DNA of 29,307 bases from a virus, in IMG/VR virus record IMGVR_UViG_3300018421_006875, positions 1 through 29,307 of that record; one strand, given 5' to 3'. Shown in pieces: positions 66 through 29,307 of the stretch. Numbering within the stretch: position 1 is the first letter of the stretch; every line of letters starts with the position of its first letter. The translations under genes and the position numbers were made by a program. The notes below the pieces were generated by a model. The model saw only the letters and a program-made list of their open reading frames with translations, was not told where the DNA came from and made no database searches.

Positions 66-422
66 TTATTCCTTTTCTCGTCGCTCTATTCGTCGTAGCT
101 CTCTATTTACCCATTTCTGCGCAGGTGTTCCGCCCCATAAAGCCCACGCTATCGCAGCTTTAGAGCTTTTATCTCGGCGAGCCTCAGCGCTGCCCTCTGC
201 TTTACTATGACGAGCAAACCACGCCCGCATTAGTAATAGCTGCTCTTTATCGATCTGACCCTTGACTAGGCGTCTAGCTGTCCTCATACCTGTACCGGCT
301 ACTCGCTTGCCGCCCTCATCCTTATAGGCAGCGCGGCGCGACATCGGCAGAGAAATATTATAGTCAATAGCTCGCATCGCTATTAGCTGGATCTCTTTTG
401 GTACTCTAATATTTTTTGGCAT
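66..422 (-). CDS. Small basic phage protein with ARH/AWALWGG motif, function unknown
   Basis: This 118-residue basic protein begins at an ATG 7 bases after a CGGAGG ribosome site. Its second half reads GTGMRTARRL (43-52), then MRAWFARHSK (65-74), then KAAIAWALWGGTPAQKW (88-104). I recognise this pattern (RAR-arm, FFARH-like, AWLLWGGD-like) from many otherwise uncharacterised phage proteins and phage-protein C-termini, but I know no proven role. It is the last gene of the 1536-66 group, one base from its upstream neighbour, and lies just before the contig end and the methyltransferase. The positive charge and the spacing of the motif suggest nucleic-acid or capsid contact, which is inference only. 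Confidence 0.8.
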   Translation of the reverse strand: MPKNIRVPKEIQLIAMRAIDYNISLPMSRRAAYKDEGGKRVAGTGMRTARRLVKGQIDKEQLLLMRAWFARHSKAEGSAEARRDKSSKAAIAWALWGGTPAQKWVNRELRRIERREKE

Positions 423-699: not shown

Positions 700-1268
700 T
701 TCTTGCTCTCCTGTATCGCCCATAAAGCTACCCCGCAGGCGTCGGTAATATGATCCAATTGCCCGCAGAGATCTAGATAGAGAACTATCTCAGGGCATAG
801 AATCGGAACCATAGACAGCGACGCCTCTTTACATTTTGCTCGCTTAGTAAAATGAGGAACGTCTAATAGATCTTTGCGCCACTGGCTAGCCATTACCCAT
901 GTAATCGGGCAAGTAGATAGATGAGTCATAATCGCCCCTCTTACACCGCCTACAATCATTCCCGCCCGCTTCGCTACCTGTCTGCCTGCATTAGGCGATC
1001 TAGGGTTAATATAGGCGTCCTCGCTAACAATAGGCAGAGATAGCCCCGCACCGTAGTTATCTCTAATCTTATTCCCGATGTACAGCCCTATCTCGGCAGC
1101 GTCCGCTAGTATGACCTCGATAACTCTATTACCCGTACAATACGATAGTTTATAGACTCGCTGCTTATTTCTAGTGACCTGCCGCCAGTGATAGACCGCA
1201 GCAGGTTTATCGTAATCATCTAGTAGGACGGCGCCGCCCTCGTTAGCTGGATCAATACCGAGTAACAT
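696..1268 (-). CDS. RuvC-like Holliday junction resolvase
   Basis: This 190-residue protein has the layout of phage RuvC-family nucleases (RNase H fold). It opens with LLGIDPANEGGAV (Asp6, first metal-binding acid), has IVSEDAYI with Glu83, and ends with DHITDACGVALWA (Asp172 and Asp176, the C-terminal acids). A conserved-looking SQWRKDLL lies at 128-135. The expected reaction is metal-dependent cutting of branched DNA, resolving recombination or replication forks and trimming DNA before packaging. The ATG at 1268 has a strong GGAGGGG site and overlaps the upstream HTH gene by 17 bases. It is co-transcribed with the small genes below it and, across the contig ends, probably with the terminase. 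Confidence 0.85.
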   Translation of the reverse strand: MLLGIDPANEGGAVLLDDYDKPAAVYHWRQVTRNKQRVYKLSYCTGNRVIEVILADAAEIGLYIGNKIRDNYGAGLSLPIVSEDAYINPRSPNAGRQVAKRAGMIVGGVRGAIMTHLSTCPITWVMASQWRKDLLDVPHFTKRAKCKEASLSMVPILCPEIVLYLDLCGQLDHITDACGVALWAIQESKK

Positions 1269-1536
1269 CGTCGCCCCTCCAATGTATAGTAATTGCCTGT
1301 ATGCAATCTATGAGCAGATACGAGGCATCTACGCGCCGCTCTGTAGCTAGGATAACAACGATCCGTAATAGCATCGGCAGCGTTAGCTTTACCTCGCCCT
1401 GCTGTAGATAGCGGCGGATATGCCTAGAGGAGATCCCGATCATCTGCGCGAGCCATTGAGGATCCCGCTCTGCCTCGAATAGCTGATCCTCTACCCATAG
1501 CCCGAATAATGATTTATCTAGCGCTTTACCGCCCAT
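1252..1536 (-). CDS. Small helix-turn-helix DNA-binding protein
   Basis: This is a 94-residue protein. The segment DPQWLAQMIGISSRHIRRYLQQGEVKLTLPMLLRI (about 25-59) fits an XRE/Cro-type HTH: helix, turn at GISS, recognition helix, then a third helix. It is the first gene of the leftward unit, 21 bases behind a consensus promoter and just after an AGAGGGG site. Its position next to the divergent control region makes it the natural candidate for a Cro-like regulator of one or both promoters. It lacks any peptidase or dimerisation domain of a CI-type repressor. It shares the HTH layout with the proteins at 6796-7038 and 26379-26660, though sequence identity is low. The target site is unknown. 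Confidence 0.82.
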   Translation of the reverse strand: MGGKALDKSLFGLWVEDQLFEAERDPQWLAQMIGISSRHIRRYLQQGEVKLTLPMLLRIVVILATERRVDASYLLIDCIQAITIHWRGDDVTRY

Positions 1537-1556
1537 AATAGCCCCTCTTTTGTAGA

Positions 1557-1585
1557 ATTGTATCGGAAAAGACGAGTTTTGTCAA
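1557..1585 (-). promoter_or_regulatory. Sigma70-like promoter of the leftward unit
   Basis: On the minus strand TTGACA (1585-1580) is followed by 17 bases and TACAAT (1562-1557), almost the full consensus. The AGAGGGG ribosome site and the ATG of the HTH gene follow closely. No CTGTAAAA operator of the rightward promoters overlaps it, so it is probably controlled differently. Confidence 0.85.
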
Positions 1586-1712
1586 TATGTTTATGTATGA
1601 TAAAGTAGAGATCGCTCTAGTATTGGCCGGCCTAATGGCATCGGGTAAAAACGGGTAGAATTTCGCCTATATTGGCCTACGCGCCGGGATAAAGTACAGA
1701 ATAGGCCAGAAA

Positions 1713-1730
1713 ATAAGTTTCTAAACTTAT
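1713..1730. repeat. Perfect palindrome, 8-base arms
   Basis: ATAAGTTT and AAACTTAT are separated by CT. It is the first of the palindrome series in the control region and could be a dimeric protein-binding site or part of the origin. Confidence 0.7.
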
Positions 1731-1746
1731 AGATATATATAGCTCC

Positions 1747-1791
1747 GTATATAGCCCCTATATACTAAGGCTAATAATACTTTAGTATATA
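1747..1791. repeat. Two competing inverted repeats
   Basis: GTATATAG (1747-1754) pairs with CTATATAC (1758-1765) across a CCC loop. The second arm also belongs to TATATACTAA (1759-1768), which pairs with TTAGTATATA (1782-1791) across 13 bases. The two hairpins share bases and cannot form together, so this looks like a two-state element or two overlapping binding sites. Confidence 0.65.
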
Positions 1792-1800
1792 TAAATATAG

Positions 1801-1816
1801 TAATTATATATAATTA
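1801..1816. repeat. 16-base perfect AT palindrome
   Basis: TAATTATA is followed directly by TATAATTA. It consists wholly of A/T and would melt easily, as expected of an unwinding element. In AT-rich DNA such palindromes also arise by chance. Confidence 0.5.
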
Positions 1817-1879
1817 TAGCTGATTATAGGCTTATACCCTAGCATATCGAAGATCGATCTACTTGTTTTTTCCCGATGC

Positions 1880-1896
1880 TACCTATTTAATAGGTA
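1880..1896. repeat. Palindrome TACCTATT-T-AATAGGTA
   Basis: Two perfect 8-base arms flank a single central T. With its G/C bases it is more specific than the AT palindromes and resembles a dimeric repressor operator. It lies about 110 bases upstream of the first rightward promoter. Confidence 0.6.
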
Positions 1897-2003
1897 TTTA
1901 ATGACCTCGATAAATAGGGGCTACTCTGTGATATAGCTGTATTCTGTTAGTTGCTGTTTTCTATGGGTCACCCGATGCAAATTATTTTTTTTGAAAATAA
2001 TCC

Positions 2004-2032
2004 TTGACACACTGTAAAAGACATTATACAGT
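2004..2032 (+). promoter_or_regulatory. Early promoter P1 with built-in operator-like repeat
   Basis: TTGACA (2004-2009), a 17-base spacer and TACAGT (2027-2032) form a good sigma70 promoter. CTGTA (2012-2016) and TACAG (2027-2031) are an inverted repeat inside it, so a bound dimer would cover the -10 box. About 50 bases around it, from TGAAAATAATCC to AAGAGAG, recur nearly unchanged at P2 (3603-3650). Confidence 0.85.
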
Positions 2033-2064
2033 AAGAGAGTAACAACTAACCGAAGAGGTACAAT

Positions 2065-2283
2065 ATGCAAGTAACTAGAAAAGAAATGCAAGCACTACAG
2101 GCGATCGGAGCTAAATTATTTAAAATGGGCTATGACGAATCAGAGGTAGAGGAATACTGCGACATCCATGAATATATTGAAAATGCAGAATATACAGATA
2201 GAGGCTATTACATCTATTTAGGATGGATCGAAGCCCGCGAGGATTTTACAGCAGAAGATAAATACTACTCTATGTATCAATAA
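2065..2283 (+). CDS. Hypothetical acidic protein (72 aa)
   Basis: This is the first early gene, 33 bases after P1, with an AAGAGGTA site before its ATG. The product is short, strongly acidic and rich in Tyr (EVEEYCDIHEYIENAEY, DKYYSMYQ) with no membrane span or known motif. Small acidic first early proteins of phages often bind and inhibit a host protein, sometimes mimicking DNA. That is a general pattern, not evidence for this one. A duplicated hairpin element follows its stop. Confidence 0.75.
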   Translation: MQVTRKEMQALQAIGAKLFKMGYDESEVEEYCDIHEYIENAEYTDRGYYIYLGWIEAREDFTAEDKYYSMYQ

Positions 2284-2299
2284 TCACTAACTATTTTTT

Positions 2300-2330
2300 G
2301 ACCTGAGCATGTCGTTAAACTGCTCATTTT
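2300..2330 (+). promoter_or_regulatory. Intercistronic hairpin element, copy A
   Basis: TGAGCA (2304-2309) pairs with TGCTCA (2321-2326), followed by TTTT. GAC (2300-2302) could additionally pair with GTC (2311-2313) in the loop, giving a pseudoknot. Copy B at 4345-4375 matches 28 of 31 bases. It sits between two genes, before the next ribosome site, so it is likely a weak terminator/attenuator or a protein-binding RNA element. Confidence 0.6.
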
Positions 2331-2354
2331 AACTAATAAACAAGAGGTAACAAA

Positions 2355-2780
2355 ATGATTAAACTAAAACTAGGAATGATACTAAGAGCAAAAAAAGACC
2401 TAAGAACAGGATCTATTTTTGGTTGCAATGATGATAATATATGCAAAAAAAACACTATTGTTTTTCCAAAAAACCCCACTAGTAAAGGCGACGTAACATG
2501 CAAAGAAATAGGAAGAATCGAAGCAGATAATTTTATTCCGTTCGATGGAAAAGATGATTTTTTCAAAGAAGGACATAGCACTACTCGCCCCTATGATCTA
2601 GGCTATATTGATCCTACAAAATGGGAAATAATTGGTGAAATATATGATGCCGATTTCTTATATCGATACAAAAGACAAGCGCCCCACAAAAAAGAGAACC
2701 CTTTAGTCATAATCAGAGATAATCAGGGTAAATTCACTTTTACAGAAGGCACATGGAACCATGCAAAATGGACTCTATAA
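2355..2780 (+). CDS. Hypothetical protein (141 aa)
   Basis: I do not recognise this protein. It is Lys-rich, with a hydrophilic N-terminus (MIKLKLGMILRAKKDLRTG), a central Asp/Gly loop region and several aromatics. No membrane span, zinc motif or catalytic signature is visible. The ATG follows an AAGAGGTAACAAA leader shared with most early genes. It lies in the P1 operon after the hairpin element at 2300-2330 and 37 bases ahead of the next gene. Its A-rich codon use is slightly stronger than that of the replication genes downstream. Confidence 0.75.
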   Translation: MIKLKLGMILRAKKDLRTGSIFGCNDDNICKKNTIVFPKNPTSKGDVTCKEIGRIEADNFIPFDGKDDFFKEGHSTTRPYDLGYIDPTKWEIIGEIYDADFLYRYKRQAPHKKENPLVIIRDNQGKFTFTEGTWNHAKWTL

Positions 2781-2817
2781 ACATAGACAATAACTAACAA
2801 CTAACAAGAGGTACAAA

Positions 2818-3138
2818 ATGCTAAGATACAGAGGACATGAAATCTATTATTCCGGACGTGACACTAAAAAAACGATGCTTTGCTATGGTGTAAAATACGA
2901 GGCAGAGGCAGCTATTTATTTGATCGAAGGTTGGCAGGTCAATAAGACTAACCCATTCCATAATCAATACTATCTAACATCGATCGCAGCATGTAAGGCA
3001 TTCATCGACGAGCAAATAGCTAGCGCAGGCTATGAGATAGTACAGCAAGAGAGCAAAGAATATATAGCTACACTTGATAATGAGATCGTAGCTCGAGCTA
3101 TGAGCCTCGGGAAACTTTACGAACAATTGAATAGCTAA
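2818..3138 (+). CDS. Hypothetical protein (106 aa)
   Basis: This is a third small protein of the P1 operon. The start is supported by the repeated leader AACTAACAAGAGGTACAAA directly before ATG. The N-terminus (LRYRGHEIYYSG) and the central helix-rich part (AEAAIYLIEGWQV, AACKAFIDEQIASAGYEI) suggest a compact alpha/beta protein. I see no catalytic motif. It has two isolated cysteines and no zinc pattern. Function is unknown. Its neighbours are the tiny membrane protein and the SWIM zinc protein. Confidence 0.75.
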   Translation: MLRYRGHEIYYSGRDTKKTMLCYGVKYEAEAAIYLIEGWQVNKTNPFHNQYYLTSIAACKAFIDEQIASAGYEIVQQESKEYIATLDNEIVARAMSLGKLYEQLNS

Positions 3139-3149
3139 GAGGTGACACT

Positions 3150-3299
3150 ATGACTAATAAACTACTCGATACTCTAGGATTAACTCGCGACGATTTCCGC
3201 TATTGCCCGTATGTACTTTACGCTGCGGGCGCCTACGCTGCATACTATGCTTATTTCCATCTACTCGCATACGCGGCGGGCGTTATTGGCGGTTATTAA
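3150..3299 (+). CDS. Tiny Tyr/Ala-rich membrane protein (49 aa)
   Basis: This short ORF starts at an ATG with AGAGGTGA 5 bases upstream and ends in a TAATG overlap with the next gene. The first 20 residues are polar (MTNKLLDTLGLTRDDFRYCP). The remainder (YVLYAAGAYAAYYAYFHLLA and then YAAGVIGG) is a hydrophobic, Tyr/Ala/Gly-rich stretch long enough for one membrane helix. It could be a host-membrane effector or a small holin-like/superinfection protein. There is no family match that I know. A longer ORF in another frame that begins at 3203 lies over it but has no ribosome site. Confidence 0.7.
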   Translation: MTNKLLDTLGLTRDDFRYCPYVLYAAGAYAAYYAYFHLLAYAAGVIGGY

Positions 3300-3598
3300 T
3301 GATCTGGGCTAATATAGGCTCAATAATCGATTACTGGGCGATTCTATACTCTAAGGCTGACGAAAAGAAACGAAGCGTATTAGAGGCTAGAATCGCCCTT
3401 GTTATTGATACTCAGCGCGTACGGATGGATCAGGATTACAATATACTAGGCAGCGCAGGCGATCACTATCAAGAGATTACCCGAGAGGGCTATTATTGTA
3501 GCTGTACCGCCTTCGGTACCTCTGCGCCTACGGGCGAGCAGAAGAAACCCTGTAAGCATCTCTACGCGCTAGCGAGCGGAATAATTAAAAATTACTGA
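3299..3598 (+). CDS. SWIM-type zinc-finger protein
   Basis: This is a 99-residue protein. I chose the ATG at 3299, which overlaps the preceding stop (TAATG), over an upstream ATG at 3203 that has no ribosome site and would cover the tiny membrane gene. The C-terminal part has C67-x-C69, then C85-x-H87 (YCSCTAF...KKPCKHLYAL), the CxC-xn-CxH pattern of SWIM zinc fingers. SWIM domains mediate DNA or protein contact in recombination and ATPase proteins. The N-terminal helix-rich half (ADEKKRSVLEARIALVID) has no known match. It is the last gene of the P1 unit. Confidence 0.75.
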   Translation: MIWANIGSIIDYWAILYSKADEKKRSVLEARIALVIDTQRVRMDQDYNILGSAGDHYQEITREGYYCSCTAFGTSAPTGEQKKPCKHLYALASGIIKNY

Positions 3599-3614
3599 AA
3601 TATGAAAATAATCC

Positions 3615-3643
3615 TTGACTCTGTGTAAAAGACATTATACAGT
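3615..3643 (+). promoter_or_regulatory. Early promoter P2
   Basis: TTGACT (3615-3620), a 17-base spacer and TACAGT (3638-3643). The block from TGAAAATAATCC (3603) to AAGAGAG (3650) is nearly identical to P1. The repeat arms are GTGTA...TACAG, so the left half-site differs by one base from P1 and may bind the regulator more weakly. It drives the replication operon. Confidence 0.85.
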
Positions 3644-3694
3644 AAGAGAGCGGGCTACTTCTGGCTCGTGTTCAATTAACTAAGAGGTAACATT

Positions 3695-4330
3695 ATGATT
3701 AATCATAACGAATATAGCTCAGATCCTAAAATCAGAGCATTACAATTACAAGGCATGGCCCTAATACAAAACATATATAGAGCGAGTTATGCACAATGGC
3801 AGACTAAAAGACCACGCGGAAAAGTAACTATCGTAGAATGGGCTGATCTACCAGATGTAAATGATGCTAACTATTGGCTATATAGCCCCCATGATGGATT
3901 ATATCTAAAGCTAAGATCTGATTTCTTTAACCCTATCCCTGTAGGCCTAGAAAAAAGCTTTGCTAGACTCGAGAAAGAAGCAGGTTTATCGCTCCATTGG
4001 ATCTATTTTGCCGATCACTCAGAAAGAGATAGCTCTATTATTCTAGCTAACGAGCTAGGCGAGGAAATTGTAGAGATCAAGCTAACCGACATCTACGAAG
4101 GCGATTACGTAGAATATATCTACATCCTAGACGAGGAAATAGCTAACTTTATCGATACAGATACTCTATTTGAGCCTAGCATGTCTAATCATCGATGGAT
4201 CCACCTAGAGCAAGCCATTGAGAACATAATCAAGTATCTAGGCGACGTCGTTATTAGAGATGTCTATGATAAAAATAACCCTGTAGATAACCGAGGCCGC
4301 GCGAAATGGGCCGCCGGTGTAAAAGCATAA
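3695..4330 (+). CDS. Hypothetical protein (211 aa)
   Basis: This is the first gene behind P2, with TAAGAGGTAACATT before the ATG. The product is soluble and acidic with many aromatics (HDGLYLKLRSDFF, GDYVEYIYILDEEIANFIDTD). The N-terminal 45 residues are helical and basic, and the middle looks beta-rich. The C-terminus has DVYDKNNPVDNRGRAKW. I see no catalytic motif and do not recognise a family. Its place directly upstream of the primase-helicase genes suggests an early replication or host-takeover function, which is inference only. It is followed by copy B of the duplicated hairpin. Confidence 0.75.
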   Translation: MINHNEYSSDPKIRALQLQGMALIQNIYRASYAQWQTKRPRGKVTIVEWADLPDVNDANYWLYSPHDGLYLKLRSDFFNPIPVGLEKSFARLEKEAGLSLHWIYFADHSERDSSIILANELGEEIVEIKLTDIYEGDYVEYIYILDEEIANFIDTDTLFEPSMSNHRWIHLEQAIENIIKYLGDVVIRDVYDKNNPVDNRGRAKWAAGVKA

Positions 4331-4344
4331 CTACTAACTTTAAC

Positions 4345-4375
4345 GACCTGAGCAAGTCCCTAAACTGCTCATTTT
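4345..4375 (+). promoter_or_regulatory. Intercistronic hairpin element, copy B
   Basis: This is a second copy of the element at 2300-2330: TGAGCA (4349-4354) pairs with TGCTCA (4366-4371), then TTTT. GAC (4345-4347) and GTC (4356-4358) are kept. The three differences from copy A all lie in the loop, so pairing is conserved. It lies between the 211-residue gene and the next ribosome site. Confidence 0.6.
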
Positions 4376-4395
4376 CAACTAACTAAGAGGTAACA

Positions 4396-4599
4396 ATGAG
4401 TAACATCATAAAAGTACAACGTGAGCAGATGATACAAGGAATCATTATTGGATTACGTAACAGCGTTAAACGATTCGGAATGTCTTATACGCGCCAATCT
4501 ACCAGCAAGCTAATGACTACACTAGAGCAAGCAGGCGATAGCTATTTAATCGAAGCATATAAAGAAGCATGGGCGCTCTGCGGATGGGGGCAGCTATGA
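4396..4599 (+). CDS. Hypothetical protein (67 aa)
   Basis: A small, mainly helical, basic protein (VQREQMIQGIIIGLRNSVKRFG, KLMTTLEQAGDSYLIEAYKEAW) with no recognised motif. The ATG is preceded by CTAAGAGGTAACA. Its stop overlaps the start of the primase gene (ATGA at 4596-4599), so translation of the two is coupled. That coupling suggests a partner or accessory of the primase. Confidence 0.75.
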   Translation: MSNIIKVQREQMIQGIIIGLRNSVKRFGMSYTRQSTSKLMTTLEQAGDSYLIEAYKEAWALCGWGQL

Positions 4600-5534
4600 T
4601 CGAGTTTTCTACATTTAAAAATATCAAGTCTAATAAGCCGCAGCTACATAGCTTAGATCTATCTACATTTATTAAAGGGATGATTACCCCTATATCAGAA
4701 TCAGCAGAGAATAAAAGCGATCTGCCTCTGTGGTCCCCTACTATCTTCGATGGTACGCGCTGCGCTGAGAATGCAGTGAAAATAACCTGTCTAGTATTCG
4801 ATGTAGATGACGGAATTACCCCATTTAATACATGGCAGCTATTCGCCCGCGAATGGAATGTTATAGCCCATACATCCTTTAGCTCTCGCCCTAATCATCA
4901 TAAATATAGAATAATCCTACCACTAGCTCGCCCTATTCCGGCGGATGATTGGACTAGAGCATCGATCGCAGCTAATGAGCTATGGGCTAAGGTTGTAGGA
5001 CGTAAAACAGAGATAACTAGAGAGGAGGAAAGAGCATGGAAACGAGCAGCGTTAAACGATGTAGATCATCCTCTAATCTGGCGTCGATTCTATGATCGAG
5101 GCGAGGCAGATCAAAAAGCTATCAAGGATAGAGCGCGCATCTATTACCGCTTCGCGCTGCCAGCGTCCAGCTACGCCCCTACTCATCCGCTCGCCCCTCG
5201 CTATTATCATTACTGCGATGCATGGGACGGTGGGATCAATATGACCCTAGACTATTCGCATGTCGAGCTACCTAAGCGCAAAATTAAACAAATTGACCGC
5301 TCGAAGCCCGTCGGAATGCGCGAGGCACTAACCGATCCACGTTTGCGAATGGAGATCGCTATATTGTCTAGCGCGTCGATTAATGGCAATACCGCCCGCC
5401 GCATAACTTGCCCGCAATGTAATCGTAATTCGGTATGGTTTGCGATAGACATAGATAACACTAAACAACAATGGGCGACATGTAACCATGTAGAATCCTG
5501 CGGATGGTGGGGATCATTGGAGGCTTTAGCATGA
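4596..5534 (+). CDS. Primase-like protein (AEP-type) with C-terminal zinc ribbon
   Basis: This is a 312-residue protein. I chose the ATG at 4596 because it forms an ATGA overlap with the previous gene; an upstream ATG at 4569 lies inside that gene. CLVFDVDDG (Asp69-x-Asp71) and NVIAHTSFSS...HKYRIILPLARPIPADDW (about 89-119) match the catalytic DxD and the following S/H and Arg region of archaeo-eukaryotic-type phage primases. The end carries C272PQC275...C296...C302GWWG, a zinc ribbon. It should lay primers for the VapE helicase encoded by the next gene, with which it overlaps. In many phages and plasmids the two are one polypeptide; here they are split. Catalytic activity is inferred. Confidence 0.78.
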   Translation: MIEFSTFKNIKSNKPQLHSLDLSTFIKGMITPISESAENKSDLPLWSPTIFDGTRCAENAVKITCLVFDVDDGITPFNTWQLFAREWNVIAHTSFSSRPNHHKYRIILPLARPIPADDWTRASIAANELWAKVVGRKTEITREEERAWKRAALNDVDHPLIWRRFYDRGEADQKAIKDRARIYYRFALPASSYAPTHPLAPRYYHYCDAWDGGINMTLDYSHVELPKRKIKQIDRSKPVGMREALTDPRLRMEIAILSSASINGNTARRITCPQCNRNSVWFAIDIDNTKQQWATCNHVESCGWWGSLEALA

Positions 5535-6769
5535 GCAATAAAATTACAGAAATAGCTAACAAGGTAGGATTAAAAATAGCTGCGCTAGAGGCTCCTATTA
5601 ATTCCGATCCAGCTACATGGGCTAAGCTATCAACCGATAAAAACGGCGCACCTCATAAAAGCGTAGATAACCTAGCTACGATCTTCGAAAATGACCCTAA
5701 ATATTCTAGCCTCTGCTACTGCGAGCATTCGAGCCGCGTACTATGGCAAGGCGAGCTAATCGAGGATTACAAGATCGAGATCATCCGCAGAGATATAGAA
5801 ATTAGATACTTTCTTTCTCGCCCCTCCTCAGAAATCGAGCGTATTGCTCTAATGGTAGCTCATACTCGAATCGTAGAGCCGATCAAGGATTATCTACTCG
5901 ATCTAGAATGGGATAAGGAGCCTAGAATAGCTAATCTACTGCGCGATGTAGTACATGCAGAGATACCGAAGGGCGCAGAGAATCTAATAGCTGAGATCTC
6001 TCAGAAATGGCTAATCTCCTGTGTAGCTCGTATTCTAAACCCCGGATGCAAAATGGATAATTGCTTGATCTTAGTAGGCAATAAAGGCATGTGGAAAAGT
6101 ACATTTTTCAAGGTACTATTTGGTAATGATCTCGTTAGCGATAGCCCCCTAGCTATTGGAAAGAAAGACGGCTACGAAAAGCTACACCAGAGCGGCGCAT
6201 GGATCTGGGAACTCGCAGAAATGGATAGCTTGCAAGGAAGGAGCGCAGCTACTACTAAGCAATTTTTAACATCTTCTGAGGATACCTATAGACCCTCATA
6301 CGGTAGATTACCCGTACGAAGAAAGCGCCGTACTGTATTCGTAGCTACTACTAACGATTTCCAATTTCTCAGCGACGGACCAGAGCGCCGATTCTGGACG
6401 ATCCGCATCACTAAACCGATCGATCTAGCTTACATTCGCGAACATAGAGAGAATTTACTCGCTGAGGCTGTACATCTCTATAAACAGGATGTTCCATGGT
6501 GGCTCGATTATAAGCAAGAGCAGAAACTAGCCCTCTACCAATCTACATTTATCATTGACGATCCATGGGCTATGTCTGTAGTAGAGAAATTAGAGAGAGA
6601 TGCTAACGCGATGATGAAAACTACCACCGCCGATCTAATGCAGGCGATCGGTATTCTGCCATCACAGCAGCATGTAGGGAATGCTAAGAGAATAGCCCAG
6701 ATATGCAGAGATTCAGGCTATGAGCAGAAAGCGAGCCGAGGCATGAGATACTGGAAAAAAACAAAATGA
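5531..6769 (+). CDS. VapE-family replicative helicase (superfamily 3-like ATPase)
   Basis: The protein has 412 residues from the ATG at 5531, which overlaps the primase stop (ATGA) and has GGAGG 7 bases upstream; an in-frame start at 5504 has no such site. The ATPase core is clear: Walker A VGNKGMWKSTFF (about 182-193), Walker B WIWELAEMD (224-232), sensor FVATTN (270-275) and the arginine-finger segment PERRFW (284-289). This order fits virulence-associated protein E (VapE) helicases of phages and phage islands, which unwind DNA at the origin with a primase. The N-terminal 180 residues (DNLATIFENDP..., LPLDLEWDKEPR-like linker) are typical for the family. It is a strong candidate to act at the palindrome-rich region at 1700-1900. 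Confidence 0.88.
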   Translation: MSNKITEIANKVGLKIAALEAPINSDPATWAKLSTDKNGAPHKSVDNLATIFENDPKYSSLCYCEHSSRVLWQGELIEDYKIEIIRRDIEIRYFLSRPSSEIERIALMVAHTRIVEPIKDYLLDLEWDKEPRIANLLRDVVHAEIPKGAENLIAEISQKWLISCVARILNPGCKMDNCLILVGNKGMWKSTFFKVLFGNDLVSDSPLAIGKKDGYEKLHQSGAWIWELAEMDSLQGRSAATTKQFLTSSEDTYRPSYGRLPVRRKRRTVFVATTNDFQFLSDGPERRFWTIRITKPIDLAYIREHRENLLAEAVHLYKQDVPWWLDYKQEQKLALYQSTFIIDDPWAMSVVEKLERDANAMMKTTTADLMQAIGILPSQQHVGNAKRIAQICRDSGYEQKASRGMRYWKKTK

Positions 6770-6795
6770 CTACTAACAACAAAAAAGAGGTAACT

Positions 6796-7038
6796 ATGAA
6801 TTTACTAGGATCATATATCGCGGACTTTCTGCGAATTCACAATATAACCCAGACAGATCTAGCCCGTAGAATGGGAAAGAGTAGAGCTACTATTAACAAT
6901 TGGATTACGAATAGAAATAGATTAGATTCTGTGGATTTCTGCCAGCTAGCTAAAATTATAGCTGTAGAAAGAGGCATGTCTATTGCTGTAGTATTATTCG
7001 AGATGCATGTATGCCTTATAGGCGGTGCTCATGAGTAG
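6796..7038 (+). CDS. XRE-type helix-turn-helix regulator
   Basis: This 80-residue protein consists mostly of a HTH: IADFLRIHNITQTDLARRMGKSRATINNWITNRNRLDSVDFCQLAKI. It is a typical XRE/Cro fold with TQTDLARRMG, SRATINNW as the recognition helix, and a following helix. I chose the ATG at 6796 because AAGAGGTAAC stands just before it, as in other early genes. An alternative ATG at 6766 overlaps the helicase stop and would add ten residues. It has no oligomerisation domain. As a mid-operon early regulator it could bind the CTGTAAAA-type sites in P1-P3 and shut off early transcription, but no direct evidence shows this. Confidence 0.82.
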   Translation: MNLLGSYIADFLRIHNITQTDLARRMGKSRATINNWITNRNRLDSVDFCQLAKIIAVERGMSIAVVLFEMHVCLIGGAHE

Positions 7039-7207
7039 AGTCTATTCTTTTGATGAGATCTCTCGTATGAGATACGAGCAGGCGCATATATGCGATTTCT
7101 GCGGCCATCTACTACAGCTATGTAGCTGCGAGGCAGAGGAGGCTAAAATAGCCCCTTCTGCGCCTCGTAAAGAAACTAAGAAGAAAGGGGGCGACGATGA
7201 TAACTAA
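7031..7207 (+). CDS. Small Cys-rich (zinc-knuckle-like) protein (58 aa)
   Basis: The ATG at 7031 overlaps the HTH stop, with AGGCGGTG as ribosome site; a GTG six bases earlier is a weaker choice. The pattern C21-x2-C24-x6-C31-x-C33 (HICDFCGHLLQLCSCEAEE) suggests one bound zinc. The tail is charged and low in complexity (APRKETKKKGGDDDN) and probably disordered. Function is unknown. A similar CxxC...CxC pattern appears in the ORF at 26434-26727. Confidence 0.75.
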   Translation: MSRVYSFDEISRMRYEQAHICDFCGHLLQLCSCEAEEAKIAPSAPRKETKKKGGDDDN

Positions 7208-7502
7208 GGCAGAATATACTAGATGTTTAAATTATCTCAACGCAGGGCGTAAATTTCCGATCGATCGAGATGAGTATATTAACAACCTCAGAGAGGATCT
7301 AGATATAGCCCTACCGCATAAAGATAGCTGCGGCGGGCGGTATAAGATTATGACCCTGAGAAAAGAGATCGAAAAGGCTCGGCTATTTCTGCGGTTACAA
7401 GCTAGATTCGAAGAAAAGCGATCGATGACGAAAGAGCAGGCGCTAGAGTATGCAGAGCAGACCGTAGCCGAGTATAGACGGATAACATGGGGCGATAAAT
7501 GA
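7197..7502 (+). CDS. Hypothetical helical protein (101 aa)
   Basis: It overlaps the preceding gene by 11 bases, with AAAGGGGG before the ATG. The product is highly charged and helix-forming (EYINNLREDLDIAL, RKEIEKARLFLRLQARFEEKRSMTKEQALEYAEQTVAEYRR), likely a helical bundle or a partial coiled coil. No family is recognised. It belongs to a tightly overlapping group of small genes behind the helicase. Confidence 0.75.
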   Translation: MITKAEYTRCLNYLNAGRKFPIDRDEYINNLREDLDIALPHKDSCGGRYKIMTLRKEIEKARLFLRLQARFEEKRSMTKEQALEYAEQTVAEYRRITWGDK

Positions 7503-7669
7503 GCGATATATTTCAGCAGCTATTTAGTATCTGGATCTCTGAGGTAGGCGAGGAAATAACCCGCCGCAGAGTCAAGGCATACATTAGCAAGCTAACCGCT
7601 AATAATGATACTCGTATTTTGCTAGCAGTATTAGAGGCAGCGCAACGCCTCGATCTAATCGATCAATAA
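7499..7669 (+). CDS. Small hypothetical protein (56 aa)
   Basis: A short ORF that starts in an ATGA overlap with the stop of the previous gene (7500-7502). It encodes a helical protein beginning MSDIFQQLFSIWISEVGEEI and ending AVLEAAQRLDLIDQ, with a basic TRRRVKAYISK in the middle. It ends 19 bases before a rho-independent terminator, so it is the last gene of the P2 unit. The overlap and codon use like its neighbours support it. Function is unknown. Confidence 0.65.
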   Translation: MSDIFQQLFSIWISEVGEEITRRRVKAYISKLTANNDTRILLAVLEAAQRLDLIDQ

Positions 7670-7687
7670 AAAATAAAATTATTTTTT

Positions 7688-7728
7688 CCGCAGATAACGC
7701 CCATCTCCTCGGGACTATCTGCGGTTTT
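7688..7728 (+). terminator. Rho-independent terminator of the replication operon
   Basis: CCGCAGATA (7688-7696) pairs perfectly with TATCTGCGG (7716-7724), followed by TTTTCTTTATTT. The loop of 19 bases is long. The T-tract is on the plus strand side only, so it acts on the rightward operon ending at 7669. Confidence 0.8.
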
Positions 7729-7740
7729 CTTTATTTATCT

Positions 7741-7782
7741 CTGTAAAATGTATTAGACAGGCTGTAAAAACATTGCTACACT
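7741..7782 (+). promoter_or_regulatory. Early promoter P3 with tandem operator-like sites
   Basis: TAGACA (7754-7759), 17 bases and TACACT (7777-7782), then AAGAGAG as at P1 and P2. Two operator-like repeats follow each other: CTGT-N12-ACAG at 7741-7760 (covers the -35 box) and CTGT-N12-ACAC at 7762-7781 (covers the -10 box). Both keep CTGTAAAA as left half. The weaker -35 and doubled sites suggest tighter control than at P1. Confidence 0.8.
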
Positions 7783-7812
7783 AAGAGAGTAACAACTAAC
7801 AAGAGGTACAAA

Positions 7813-8157
7813 ATGTTCACAGCAAAAATTACATACTACAATAGATATAACCCCGCAGAACTAAAAACAATGTATAAGCGATTCTATACCGATACGGATC
7901 TAATCAATTATTGCAATGGTGTTATGAATTATAGCCCCGATCGATTCATTCTAAAAGCTGAGTATAGCGAAGGCGTATTTATTACCCGCAACGGCAAGAG
8001 ATTCTACGATCGCGAGCCTGAAAATAGAACCCCGCAAACCATCGATACAATAATCAAGTACATCGATTATATGACTACACCGCAAACCAAGCATCTAACC
8101 GCTGACGATTGGAAATTGTACCGCGAAGCTAAGCTAAGAGAGCATCGAATCGATTAA
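7813..8157 (+). CDS. Hypothetical protein (114 aa), monocistronic
   Basis: It is alone in its own transcription unit between P3 and the terminator at 8178, with the repeated leader AACTAACAAGAGGTACAAA before ATG. The product is basic and rich in Tyr, Asn and Arg (ITYYNRYNPAELKTMYKRFYTD, CNGVMNYSPDRFILKAEYSEG). No membrane span or known motif is visible. A private, doubly operated promoter suggests a product that must be regulated separately from replication, for example a host-takeover protein. The function remains unknown. Confidence 0.75.
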   Translation: MFTAKITYYNRYNPAELKTMYKRFYTDTDLINYCNGVMNYSPDRFILKAEYSEGVFITRNGKRFYDREPENRTPQTIDTIIKYIDYMTTPQTKHLTADDWKLYREAKLREHRID

Positions 8158-8177: not shown

Positions 8178-8215
8178 AAAAGCCCCGATAGCCTTTTACA
8201 GCTATCGGGGCTTTT
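8178..8215. terminator. Bidirectional rho-independent terminator
   Basis: AGCCCCGATAGC (8181-8192) and GCTATCGGGGCT (8201-8212) form a perfect 12-base stem around an 8-base loop, flanked by AAA on the left and TTT on the right. T-tracts therefore follow the hairpin on both strands. It separates the converging rightward (ends 8157) and leftward (ends 8239) units. Confidence 0.92.
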
Positions 8216-16255: not shown

Positions 16256-16722
16256 TACATGCCCCTATCTAGCTCATTCGCTATTACTTTTACAATTTTA
16301 TTAACCTGTTTGCGCATAGGTTTAACTAGCAATTCAGTAGAGGCTCGCTTGCCTCTGGGCTGTAATATACCCTCATTATCTTTATTTACCGAGTCATAGC
16401 CGAATTTAATCGCCCATGAGTACGGCGCTGTATTGCGCAGATAGATAACAATTTGCCCTTTTTCAAGTCTTTTACCTAGCTCAAATTTTTTCCACGATTC
16501 GCCCGATCGCTCTTTGTAAAAGACTACTTTACCGTCTTTATTTTTACGTATGAGAGGAGCCTGACGAGGCCATTCTTTAACAGCCTCGCGCTCTATTTCT
16601 TCGAAGGTAGAGGAGATCAGGCGCTCCGCATCGGGTACTACTTTCTTTAGTACGCTGTCTAGCATTTTCCCGATCGTATCCTCTACATTTAGCTGAGTTT
16701 TACCCGTTGTTATCTTAGCCAT
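16255..16722 (-). CDS. Hypothetical tail-module protein (HK97 gp10-like?)
   Basis: This 155-residue basic protein lies between the frameshifted chaperone and the tape measure. It starts 1 base after the stop of the fusion frame and shares TAATG with the tape measure start. The centre (ERSGESWKKFELGKRLEKGQIVIYLRNTAPYSWAIKFGYDSVNK) resembles small neck/tail-completion proteins of the HK97 gp10 group, where an aromatic ...YxxxIEfG motif is usual. Such genes normally lie ahead of the tail tube gene, so the position is unusual. It might instead be a tail assembly helper. Only a weak family call is possible. Confidence 0.7.
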   Translation of the reverse strand: MAKITTGKTQLNVEDTIGKMLDSVLKKVVPDAERLISSTFEEIEREAVKEWPRQAPLIRKNKDGKVVFYKERSGESWKKFELGKRLEKGQIVIYLRNTAPYSWAIKFGYDSVNKDNEGILQPRGKRASTELLVKPMRKQVNKIVKVIANELDRGM

Positions 16723-26727: not shown

Positions 26728-27376
26728 TTTTCGAAATCGCTATTACGTTTCTCGTAGATAGTATATCATTCTCTAATTTCTGCCTATGTATCGGAGGTAA
26801 AGACAGAATAGCCCCCATAATCTCTGCGATTAGTTGATCGTCTGTAAAGCCGTCCATTTCATCGCCCATATTTTCCTCTGCTTCGATCTGTCTGATCTGA
26901 GCTAGAATCGAAATAAATTGCTTCTGGAGCGCTGCGTAGGCTTGCCACGATTGAGCCTCTTTTGCCTGCGCGATCGAGCCTCGTAATTCGTCCGCCTGTA
27001 ATCGTAACACGTCTATGATATTTTTAGGTAGAGGAGCTAGCTCTTTCTCTTTCTGCTGATTCTGAAAATAGGCATCTTTTGTATAGCCATGTCGCCTTTC
27101 TAATCGCCATGCCGCTGCTTTCCAGTCCCCCGCCTTCGCGGCAGTTTCTACGAGAGCTAGATTAGCGATCGCCCCTTTCGCGTCTGCCTGTTTTATACTG
27201 TCCAGAAATGCCCTATATTCGCCCGTCTTTTCTCTCTGCCCTCTCTCCATCCAATTATAGAGGGTAGAGCGGGAAATTCCCGCATATTCTGCCGCGATCT
27301 CATACGTAGCGCCTAGCCTTAGAGCCTGTACAATAAGATCTCGTACTGGTTTAACAAATTTCGATTTTCTAGCCAT
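26717..27376 (-). CDS. terS: Terminase small subunit
   Basis: A 219-residue protein. An N-terminal HTH (VQALRLGATYEIAAEYAGISRSTLYNWMERGQ, about 16-47) is typical of small terminases that bind the packaging site. A helical centre (AAAWRLERRHGYTKDAYFQNQ) and a long coiled-coil-like C-terminal half (LRLQADELRGSIAQAKEAQSW...FISILAQIRQIEAEEN) suit ring formation. The start shares TAATG with the methyltransferase stop and has AAGAGGCGG upstream. It feeds DNA to terL two genes downstream. Confidence 0.85.
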   Translation of the reverse strand: MARKSKFVKPVRDLIVQALRLGATYEIAAEYAGISRSTLYNWMERGQREKTGEYRAFLDSIKQADAKGAIANLALVETAAKAGDWKAAAWRLERRHGYTKDAYFQNQQKEKELAPLPKNIIDVLRLQADELRGSIAQAKEAQSWQAYAALQKQFISILAQIRQIEAEENMGDEMDGFTDDQLIAEIMGAILSLPPIHRQKLENDILSTRNVIAISKNEI

Positions 27377-29244
27377 TATTCCGCCTCTTGATCTTGATCT
27401 CTATATTCTTTTTTCGCCCAATTGATACGACCCTCTATTATAGGGTAATAGTCCGCGGTCATTTCGCAGCCTACCGCATTAAAGCCCTCTAATATAGCCG
27501 ATACTGCTGTGGTACCGCTACCCAGAAAAGGATCGAGTACAGTACCCCCCGCAGGCGTTAATAATCTACATAACCACCGCATTAATTTTATCGGCTTTAC
27601 GGTAGGATGGAAATTTTTAACCTGATCCGCAGTACGCCCCGCGCCCGCTCTGGGCGAATTCAAGCCGTCCGATCCCTCTTTTCGCTGTGTAGCCTCTGCG
27701 CCTGTTTTCCCTTGTATATGTTCTAGCCCTGCCTCTTTCTCGGCGCGCTGCGGCTTCGAGCACTGATAGACATTAGCAGGCCAGCGCCCGCCCTGCGGCT
27801 TATAGGTATTTAAGTCAATACTTTTCTGTGATACGATCGGAACTGATCCGCCTTTTGATTCTGATTGTATCCGATCCCACTGATCCGAACAGTCGGAGCT
27901 ATCCCCGAAATGACAATCATCGCCATAGGGGAAACGCCCCGCGTCTATATTGATCGCCCCTGTTCCCCACTTTAGAACATTCTCAGCAATACTAGAGCAG
28001 TCCGGATCGATAGGCTTGCGAGCTAGTACGGCGGGCTCCTGAGCAGGCTTTAACGCTGTACCCCATCCTTGCCATTTTTGCGCTTGTAGGCTGTGTGGTT
28101 CTGTGATGTTAAAGTTATCTTTAAAGCCATAGGCGCCCTGCTGTCCACAATGACTTGATCCAATTCCTTTAGTCTTGCTTGCGATAACTTTACGCTTTTT
28201 CATATTCTCGCTTTCTACTGTTCTATGATTCACATAATCCTCGACCCAATCAGGAACAGGGATCGAGATATATGGGCGCATCTTCTCAAATAGATCCCTT
28301 GTAGGTATTGCGGGCTGTAATTTACTAGAAAGATAATGCGATCCCATATTTGTATCAGTGTATTGATTGATCTGCTTTGCTTTTAATCCTGTTGATCTCA
28401 TCCATTCAGTAAAACGCAATTGCATTTCTCTTTTTGGTGCTAGTCCTGTTATTTTTTCTAATGCCTTAGATATATCTAGACTTTTCGGAAATCCGGACGT
28501 GTAGATCCAGCTAATCATATCGCGCACCTCGAAGCCTGCATCCTGTAAAGCTACGCCCATCGGAAAGACAGTACGAGATCCAGAGAAAGCTACCAGATGA
28601 CCGCCGGGCTTTAATACTCGCAGGCATTCCGCCCATAGCTCTACAGAGTAGGCGATCCCTGTGCTATCCCACGCTTTACCCATAAAGCCCAATTCGTACG
28701 GGGGATCGGTTACGATGCTGTCTATAGAGCAGTCGTCTAGCTCTTGTAATTTCTCGAGGCAGTTACCCTTTAATAGCTTAAAATCGAGATTTATCTCTAC
28801 TGGCTCTAATTCGATCGGCTCTCTCTCGCTTTCTTCCTCGCTCTCTAGGTTTTCCAGAAAGTTATTTAGCTCATCATCATCGAATCCTAGATTACTTAGA
28901 TCCTCGTCTGCTAGCTCGTTTAATACTTGCTCTAATAGCTCCGTATCCCATTCTGCCCTCTCATTCAATTTGTTATCGGCTATGGCTAATAGCTGCGCAT
29001 CTACCATATCAAGATCCATAAATCGAACGGGGATCTCTACGAGTCCTAATTTCTTCGCTGCCTTATAACGAGTATGACCCGCTATAATCATTTTGTCCTC
29101 TTTTCGAGCGATGATCGGCGCAGAGAATCCGAAGCGTTTTATGCTCTCGGCTACCTCATCTACAGCGCTGTCATTTTTGCGCGGGTTATTTTCCCACTCG
29201 TTTAATTCATCGATTTTTACGTATTCTGCGGCTATTTTCGCCAT
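27376..29244 (-). CDS. ParB-domain/DNA methyltransferase fusion
   Basis: This 622-residue protein starts after TTAGGAGGTAAC. Residues 8-105 are a ParB/Srx-like domain (NNPRKND..., VAESIKRFGFSAPIIAR, IIAGHTRYKAAKKLG with GHTR 56-59). An acidic linker at 110-150 follows. The methyltransferase has motif IV DPPY (180-183), LRVLKPGGHLVAFSGSRT, SGFPKSLDISKAL, a variable region of about 250 residues, and HPTVKP (546-551) with DPFLGSGTT (571-579). The order (DPPY before FxGxG) is the beta class, N6-adenine or N4-cytosine. It probably shields phage DNA from restriction. The recognition site is unknown. Confidence 0.88.
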   Translation of the reverse strand: MAKIAAEYVKIDELNEWENNPRKNDSAVDEVAESIKRFGFSAPIIARKEDKMIIAGHTRYKAAKKLGLVEIPVRFMDLDMVDAQLLAIADNKLNERAEWDTELLEQVLNELADEDLSNLGFDDDELNNFLENLESEEESEREPIELEPVEINLDFKLLKGNCLEKLQELDDCSIDSIVTDPPYELGFMGKAWDSTGIAYSVELWAECLRVLKPGGHLVAFSGSRTVFPMGVALQDAGFEVRDMISWIYTSGFPKSLDISKALEKITGLAPKREMQLRFTEWMRSTGLKAKQINQYTDTNMGSHYLSSKLQPAIPTRDLFEKMRPYISIPVPDWVEDYVNHRTVESENMKKRKVIASKTKGIGSSHCGQQGAYGFKDNFNITEPHSLQAQKWQGWGTALKPAQEPAVLARKPIDPDCSSIAENVLKWGTGAINIDAGRFPYGDDCHFGDSSDCSDQWDRIQSESKGGSVPIVSQKSIDLNTYKPQGGRWPANVYQCSKPQRAEKEAGLEHIQGKTGAEATQRKEGSDGLNSPRAGAGRTADQVKNFHPTVKPIKLMRWLCRLLTPAGGTVLDPFLGSGTTAVSAILEGFNAVGCEMTADYYPIIEGRINWAKKEYRDQDQEAE

Positions 29245-29297: not shown

Positions 29298-29307
29298 ATA
29301 CACACAC
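29298..29307. repeat. Right copy of the terminal repeat
   Basis: These ten bases are identical to 1-10. When joined to the left end, GCGG (29292-29295) can pair with CCGC (13-16) and an 8-base A-run (29284-29291) becomes a T-run on the minus strand, giving a weak terminator-like structure before the methyltransferase gene only in the joined form. Confidence 0.5.

Follow-up and report, generated by a model that had tools for sequence, protein, structure and literature searches.

Replication origins of the phage-inducible chromosomal islands (PICIs) and of the Staphylococcus aureus pathogenicity islands (SaPIs) consist, in the available text of the published reports, of two iteron sets that flank an AT-rich region beside rep, and the authors of the PICI origin work state there that no other bacterial replicon known so far is organised in this way. 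An AT-rich core with matching repeats on both flanks has so far been described mainly in small phage parasites, and no report of a PICI-like origin arrangement in complete phages was found in the open-licence literature. We analysed virus record IMGVR_UViG_3300018421_006875, a contig of 29,307 bases (the window), and describe here the non-coding gap at the divergent junction of its late and early operons (Table 1). Judged from its sequence, this gap is probably the replication origin of the phage, built like a PICI/SaPI origin. Two further systems were compared with it, as far as the available text of each cited report goes. In SCCmec (staphylococcal cassette chromosome mec) the D5-type helicase Cch2 binds direct repeats in the intergenic region beside its own gene through a C-terminal DNA-binding domain (PMC7581432). 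Unlike the window protein, Cch2 belongs to a different helicase branch; its binding needed direct and not inverted repeats, and no inverted array pair at ~200 bases is reported in that text (PMC7581432). The origin of the pRN1-type plasmid (PrimPol/superfamily 3 helicase) adjoins the replication gene, and the element functions when moved (PMC4234260). Its essential element is a stem-loop of ~100 bases (PMC4234260), whereas in the window group inverted iterons lie ~200 bases apart and hairpins are not conserved.

The gap contains an inverted pair of 22-base sequences that match at 19 of 22 positions, with 198 bases between them. This pair is the informative feature; an initial annotation of the same DNA had missed both it and the GCATCGGG boxes. 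Boxes are present at 1638 (plus strand), 1872 (minus strand) and 1971 (minus strand), which are three of the four copies in the record (the fourth lies at 16628), and two of the three belong to the 22-base pair. When all 22-mer pairs of the record were scanned, 1638/1858 was the only one with at least 19 matches at a spacing of 185-230 bases; the next unrelated pair had 17. The least stable 60 bases of the record are flanked by this inverted pair. The gap also holds seven perfect inverted repeats (arms of at least 8 bases, loop of up to 20) out of 17 in the whole record, compared to a mean of 0.36 in dinucleotide shuffles. It would be most improbable that the region is non-functional AT-rich intergenic DNA whose repeats stem from its composition. 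AT-rich DNA readily forms palindromes, and an inverted pair of equal quality (19 matches) turned up once in 1000 dinucleotide shuffles of the gap, a point to be held against an origin as well, but none of 500 shuffles reached seven perfect inverted repeats, and the pair is unique in the record and has the spacing seen in relatives.

Searches with VapE and terminase led to a group of uncultivated phages whose large terminase subunit (TerL) is ~70% and whose VapE is ~50% identical to that of the window. Most of these relatives share the order primase, VapE, non-coding gap, p118 (a conserved small basic protein) on the opposite strand, and terminase. Their gap contains short tandem iterons, often with a 10-base period, which are inverted on both sides of an AT-rich core, and the iteron classes differ between groups of relatives (AATACACGTA, AATACACCA, GATACACGT, CAGATAAAAT, AAAAGCAGAT and others). 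In all 15 discovery loci, from which near-duplicates had been left out, the best inverted 22-mer pair had 19-22 matches at a distance of 197-227 bases, compared to 15-17 for the best of 40 shuffles of each locus. A second set of loci, fetched once the rule was fixed, had the pair in seven of eight new contigs carrying both vapE and p118. Taken over all contigs with both genes, the pair at 185-230 bases was present in 26 of 27 (counted by hand; the near-duplicates L003/L011, L008/L009, L018/L020 and L019/L021 are included, so that the independent lineages are fewer). It was found in none of 26 partly overlapping loci with neither gene (271,886 bases). Where records were covered over their full length (G002, G003, G004, G005 and G007), pairs occurred only in the vapE/p118 region, and the partial record G006 contained no inverted pair. 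The p118 proteins flanking this region in relatives have a mean column identity of 74% over 18 sequences (L026, with a stop codon within the match region, was dropped from the alignment). They gave no match in Pfam or NCBIfam and only a family of unknown function in PHROGs (E 0.005), and the fold search gave no credible PDB match (best E 0.89).

The gap might instead be a packaging (pac) or partition site, with inverted repeats recognised by the small terminase subunit (TerS) or a ParB-like protein: TerS follows p118 within ~1-2 kb in relatives, and the window encodes a ParB_N domain fused to a DNA methyltransferase (27376-29244). We consider this very unlikely: the window gap lies ~3.5 kb from terS, it is the replication genes and p118, not terS, that the iteron region accompanies, and no ParA family was found among the window proteins scanned.

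The initial annotation had placed a VapE helicase and a primase on the early strand, and both assignments hold: the helicase carries the PF05272 match and the preceding gene is primase-like. A profile of 18 VapE proteins matched PDB entry 7pds ('Similar to D. nodosus vapE'; E 1.7e-40). An AlphaFold2 model of the window protein (mean predicted local distance difference test score, pLDDT, 81) had its best fold match in the same entry ('The structure of PriRep1 with dsDNA'; E 3.3e-21), followed by the SaPI5 primase-helicase 7ola (E 2e-6). By sequence and by modelled fold, the window VapE is thus closest to SaPI PriRep1, and it belongs with the Rep/PriRep-family initiator helicases that accompany a PICI/SaPI-type origin. 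A PICI/SaPI-type origin is characterised by iterons to which the C-terminal domain of the initiator binds, and by a segment that, together with rep, lets a plasmid replicate autonomously. In the model of the window protein, residues ~371-419 at the C-terminus fold as helix-helix-helix-strand-strand and may form a winged helix. The likeness to the Pri-Rep-ori systems of the PICIs and SaPIs (e.g. SaPI1 with PriRep1, or EcCICFT073 of E. coli) is drawn from this initiator and from the layout of a flanked AT-rich core, not from the letters of the iterons. In two respects the window differs. A PICI as an element is a satellite that lacks the full virion gene set and has int and alpA/stl control, whereas the window has matches to the large and small terminase subunits, a tape measure, a minor tail protein and an endolysin. 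By this gene content it is no satellite but a complete tailed phage, equipped with terminase, tail and lysis genes of its own. Also, the element lies 5' of the early operon between divergent promoters, ~3.5 kb from vapE, instead of immediately 3' of rep.

Inverted iterons at the spacing of the relatives, the least stable DNA of the record and a helicase akin to a self-loading initiator together support an origin in the gap. In the mechanism we propose, VapE, or VapE with the primase, would bind the two inverted clusters of short iterons that flank the easily melted AT-rich core of ~200 bases, perhaps through the putative C-terminal winged helix. Two VapE hexamers or rings could then assemble face to face on the iteron arms, the core would open and the helicase would load itself. 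Synthesis would be started by the primase at both forks, and replication would begin in the gap. Since the late and early promoters would flank the origin of the window, binding of the initiator may, more speculatively, also touch the early/late switch.

The main rival is a regulatory role, in which the iterons and palindromes serve as operators for a helix-turn-helix (HTH) repressor or activator, HTH94 or HTH90, that balances the divergent promoters and has no part in replication. The promoters noted in the initial annotation were recovered as an outward pair of strong sigma-70-like sites with the gap between them, the phage has two small HTH proteins, and palindromes are typical operators. 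Taken together, the promoter-like matches in 1250-2400 do not clearly outnumber those in shuffles (7 vs 4.3 +/- 2.1). Besides its place at 1992-2039, the early promoter recurs in almost identical form along the early operon, at 3603-3650 (94% over 48 bases) and 7756-7815 (86% over 63 bases), yet the only other GCATCGGG is the copy at 16628, so the boxes do not travel with this promoter. In relatives the same geometry adjoins the 3' ends of vapE and p118, for the most part at places with no divergent promoters to control, and the fixed spacing of 185-230 bases around an AT-rich core is left unexplained by operators. We therefore regard a purely regulatory region as unlikely, although it deserves more weight than the other alternatives.

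The palindromes themselves had been read initially as marking an origin or a two-state switch. The five perfect inverted repeats listed at that time were all found at their coordinates, and two of them (1747-1765 and 1759-1791) indeed share an arm; two more had been overlooked. As a conserved element they did not stand, since perfect inverted repeats with arms of at least 8 bases are absent from 9 of the 21 relative cores tested, and conservation of the arms was the annotation's own yardstick. The origin is retained, by virtue of the iteron geometry, the weak core and the kinship of VapE and not of the palindromes, while the switch is not. In a switch of RNA or extruded DNA, the mutually exclusive hairpins would control a transcript or the DNA form, and a weaker leftward promoter-like match within the gap (1850 to 1823, 10/12) could transcribe them. 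Both strong outward promoters, however, start outside 1586-2003 and read away from the hairpins, which lie upstream of both, no Rfam family matches the window, and the hairpin is missing from the 9 cores just mentioned. A switch can hardly be expected here.

Several observations weigh against an origin of this type. The window arms, with 19/22 matches and two or three boxes, are weaker than most arrays of the relatives; each side has only one or two boxes, and many relatives have longer arrays. One contig with both vapE and p118 (L098) has no such pair, and none of 16 contigs with VapE but without p118 on the piece examined has it, several of these ending just after vapE. The window element lies 5' of the early operon, whereas in most relatives it is 3' of vapE. 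The window core could not be aligned with the cores of relatives: a hidden Markov model of 13 cores gave a best nhmmer hit in the gap of E 13. With no core alignment and no shared palindromes, the claim rests on architecture and not on sequence homology, and the link to the relatives is architectural. The nearest relative by VapE (L002, 54%), in which the early and late operons converge at the lysis genes as in the window, carries ATCTCCACCC in four copies immediately ahead of its early operon; the contig ends there, with an inverted half beyond reach, and a search with the ATCTCCACCC pattern found the L002 contig only. One group of relatives (L055, L057, L059, L016 and L022) has, besides inverted iterons, arrays of exact TTATCCACA, which we take to be the DnaA-box consensus, just 3' of vapE; the window contains no exact copy, contrary to what a DnaA-dependent origin would carry. 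Finally, the GC skew check suggested initially was run, and no origin signal could be read from it: the skew follows the gene strand in the window and is roughly monotonic in relatives whose genes lie almost all on the same strand, so it was rejected as a locator.

Related layouts exist in cultured phages. Among eight named VapE phages examined, out of 25 listed matches, three have inverted 22-mers in a non-coding gap downstream of a VapE-domain gene: Marinobacter phage PS3 (22/22, spacing 134), Pseudomonas phage vB_Pae_U5 (20/22, spacing 100) and Pseudomonas phage Haddon (19/22, spacing 100). The other five have no inverted 22-mers in the gap. In PS3, vB_Pae_U5 and Haddon the spacing differs from the 185-230 bases of the window group, and a single long reading frame seems to encode both primase and helicase. 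Leuconostoc phage LN25 (L107, 1720-2146) resembles the window in layout, with a VapE-like gene as the first after a divergent non-coding gap, an AT-rich stretch and repeated TACACACCATTT, but no inverted pair passed the threshold. More tentatively, the uncultivated group of complete tailed phages described here may use the satellite-type (PICI) origin, with its ~200-base geometry fixed and the iteron letters free to vary between groups, and the origin of the window may have moved into the early/late promoter gap. The 'unique' PICI replicon would then be an ordinary replicon of phages, either shared or taken over by satellites, and the onset of replication could be tied to the transcription switch through binding of the initiator. 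We offer this wider proposal as a possibility that we would not yet favour. A PICI-type origin in complete phages would be relevant to the source of the satellites' replicon and to the way in which satellite and phage compete for the initiator. A spacing kept at 185-230 bases while the iterons change would give a simple testable rule, with two helicase rings loaded at a set distance from each other, and would allow origins to be located in uncultivated VapE phages; the three cultured phages with the same plan make the origin layout testable at the bench.

Table 1. Features of the gap and of the genes discussed (window coordinates).
Feature	Position	Strand	Details
Non-coding gap, divergent junction of late and early operons, candidate origin region	1537..2064	.	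528 bases; from the open reading frame list
Left iteron arm GCATCGGGTAAAAACGGGTAGA	1638..1659	+	Two CGGGTA half-sites 10 bases apart
Right iteron arm (inverted) GCATCGGGAAAAAACAAGTAGA	1858..1879	-	Two half-sites 10 bases apart
Third GCATCGGGT box, inverted	1970..1978	-	
Core between iteron arms, candidate melting region	1660..1857	.	31% GC
Least stable 60 bases of the record	1758..1817		-0.92 per step by nearest-neighbour energy, vs -1.347 on average over the record (sd 0.087); second least stable stretch -1.08
Perfect inverted repeat, 8-base arms	1713..1730		
Perfect inverted repeat, 8-base arms	1747..1765		
Perfect inverted repeat, 10-base arms	1759..1791		Arm in common with 1747-1765
Perfect inverted repeat, 9-base arms	1786..1812		Missed initially
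Perfect palindrome, 16 bases	1801..1816		
Perfect inverted repeat, 8-base arms	1880..1896		Just outside the right iteron arm
Perfect inverted repeat, 8-base arms	1981..2001		Missed initially
TATTGGCC direct repeat, copy 1	1621..1628	+	
TATTGGCC direct repeat, copy 2	1670..1677	+	
Outward sigma-70-like promoter TTGACA-17-TACAAT, late operon	1557..1585	-	11/12 consensus bases
Outward sigma-70-like promoter TTGACA-17-TACAGT, early operon	2004..2032	+	Surroundings 1992-2039 recur at 3603-3650
Primase-like protein	4569..5534	+	PHROGs 9765 DNA primase, E 5e-6; gene precedes vapE
VapE-family helicase, candidate initiator	5504..6769	+	PF05272, E 2.8e-61
HTH90, small HTH protein	6766..7038		
HTH94, 94-amino-acid HTH-like protein, first gene of leftward operon	1252..1536	-	Weak Pfam HTH_31 match, E 0.064
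p118, conserved small basic protein	66..422	-	1.1 kb from gap; p99, RuvC, HTH94 between

The gap is devoid of coding sequence, as had been noted initially: it contains no open reading frame of at least 60 amino acids, and among frames of at least 30 only one, a 56-amino-acid TTG frame at 1921-2091, extends into it. The direct repeats reported there were found again, TATTGGCC at the two places given in Table 1 and CGGGTARAA at 1642 and 1652. The only two copies of TTGGCC are on the plus strand, at 1623 and 1672; the minus strand has none. Repeated 8-mers containing G or C numbered 14 in the gap vs 2.6 in its shuffles, but other windows of the record had a mean of 7.9 and a maximum of 27, and the count was not used. 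Viral contigs were also searched with the iteron pattern. Four matched, one of which, L029 (IMGVR_UViG_3300022935_002831), is the same phage as the window; the other three share no gene with it by tblastn.

L029 bridges both ends of the record with 100% identity, running from window position 2500 down to 1 and then from 29307 to 27245. Together with the 10-base repeat atacacacac at both ends (1-10 and 29298-29307), this means that the record is a closed circular or permuted map. The leftward late operon extends from 1536 through the window ends to 8239 and comprises HTH94, a RuvC-like resolvase, p118, the ParB-methyltransferase, terminase, and the structural and lysis genes. The rightward early operon, from 2065 to 8157, includes the primase-like protein, VapE and HTH90. 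No integrase was matched among the 30 window proteins scanned against PHROGs. A nucleotide search of window positions 1-24000 among phages found no relative, nor did a TerL search of genome contigs, made for the host. HTH94 also matched DNA polymerase III psi subunit models weakly (E 2.7e-4, far below the cut-off). Along the early operon a leader is repeated at 2280-2353 and 4327-4396 (78% over 74 bases), in which a TGAGCA...TGCTCATTTT hairpin is followed by a common ribosome-site stretch; the two copies could be intergenic terminators or a regulatory leader. The longest inverted repeat of the record, with 15-base arms at 8178-8215, lies in the gap where the early and late operons converge and is probably a two-way terminator. 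Over the whole window, GGCC is scarce (14 vs ~75 expected from base composition), with 4 of the 14 copies inside the gap, and GATC is frequent (337 vs ~112 expected).
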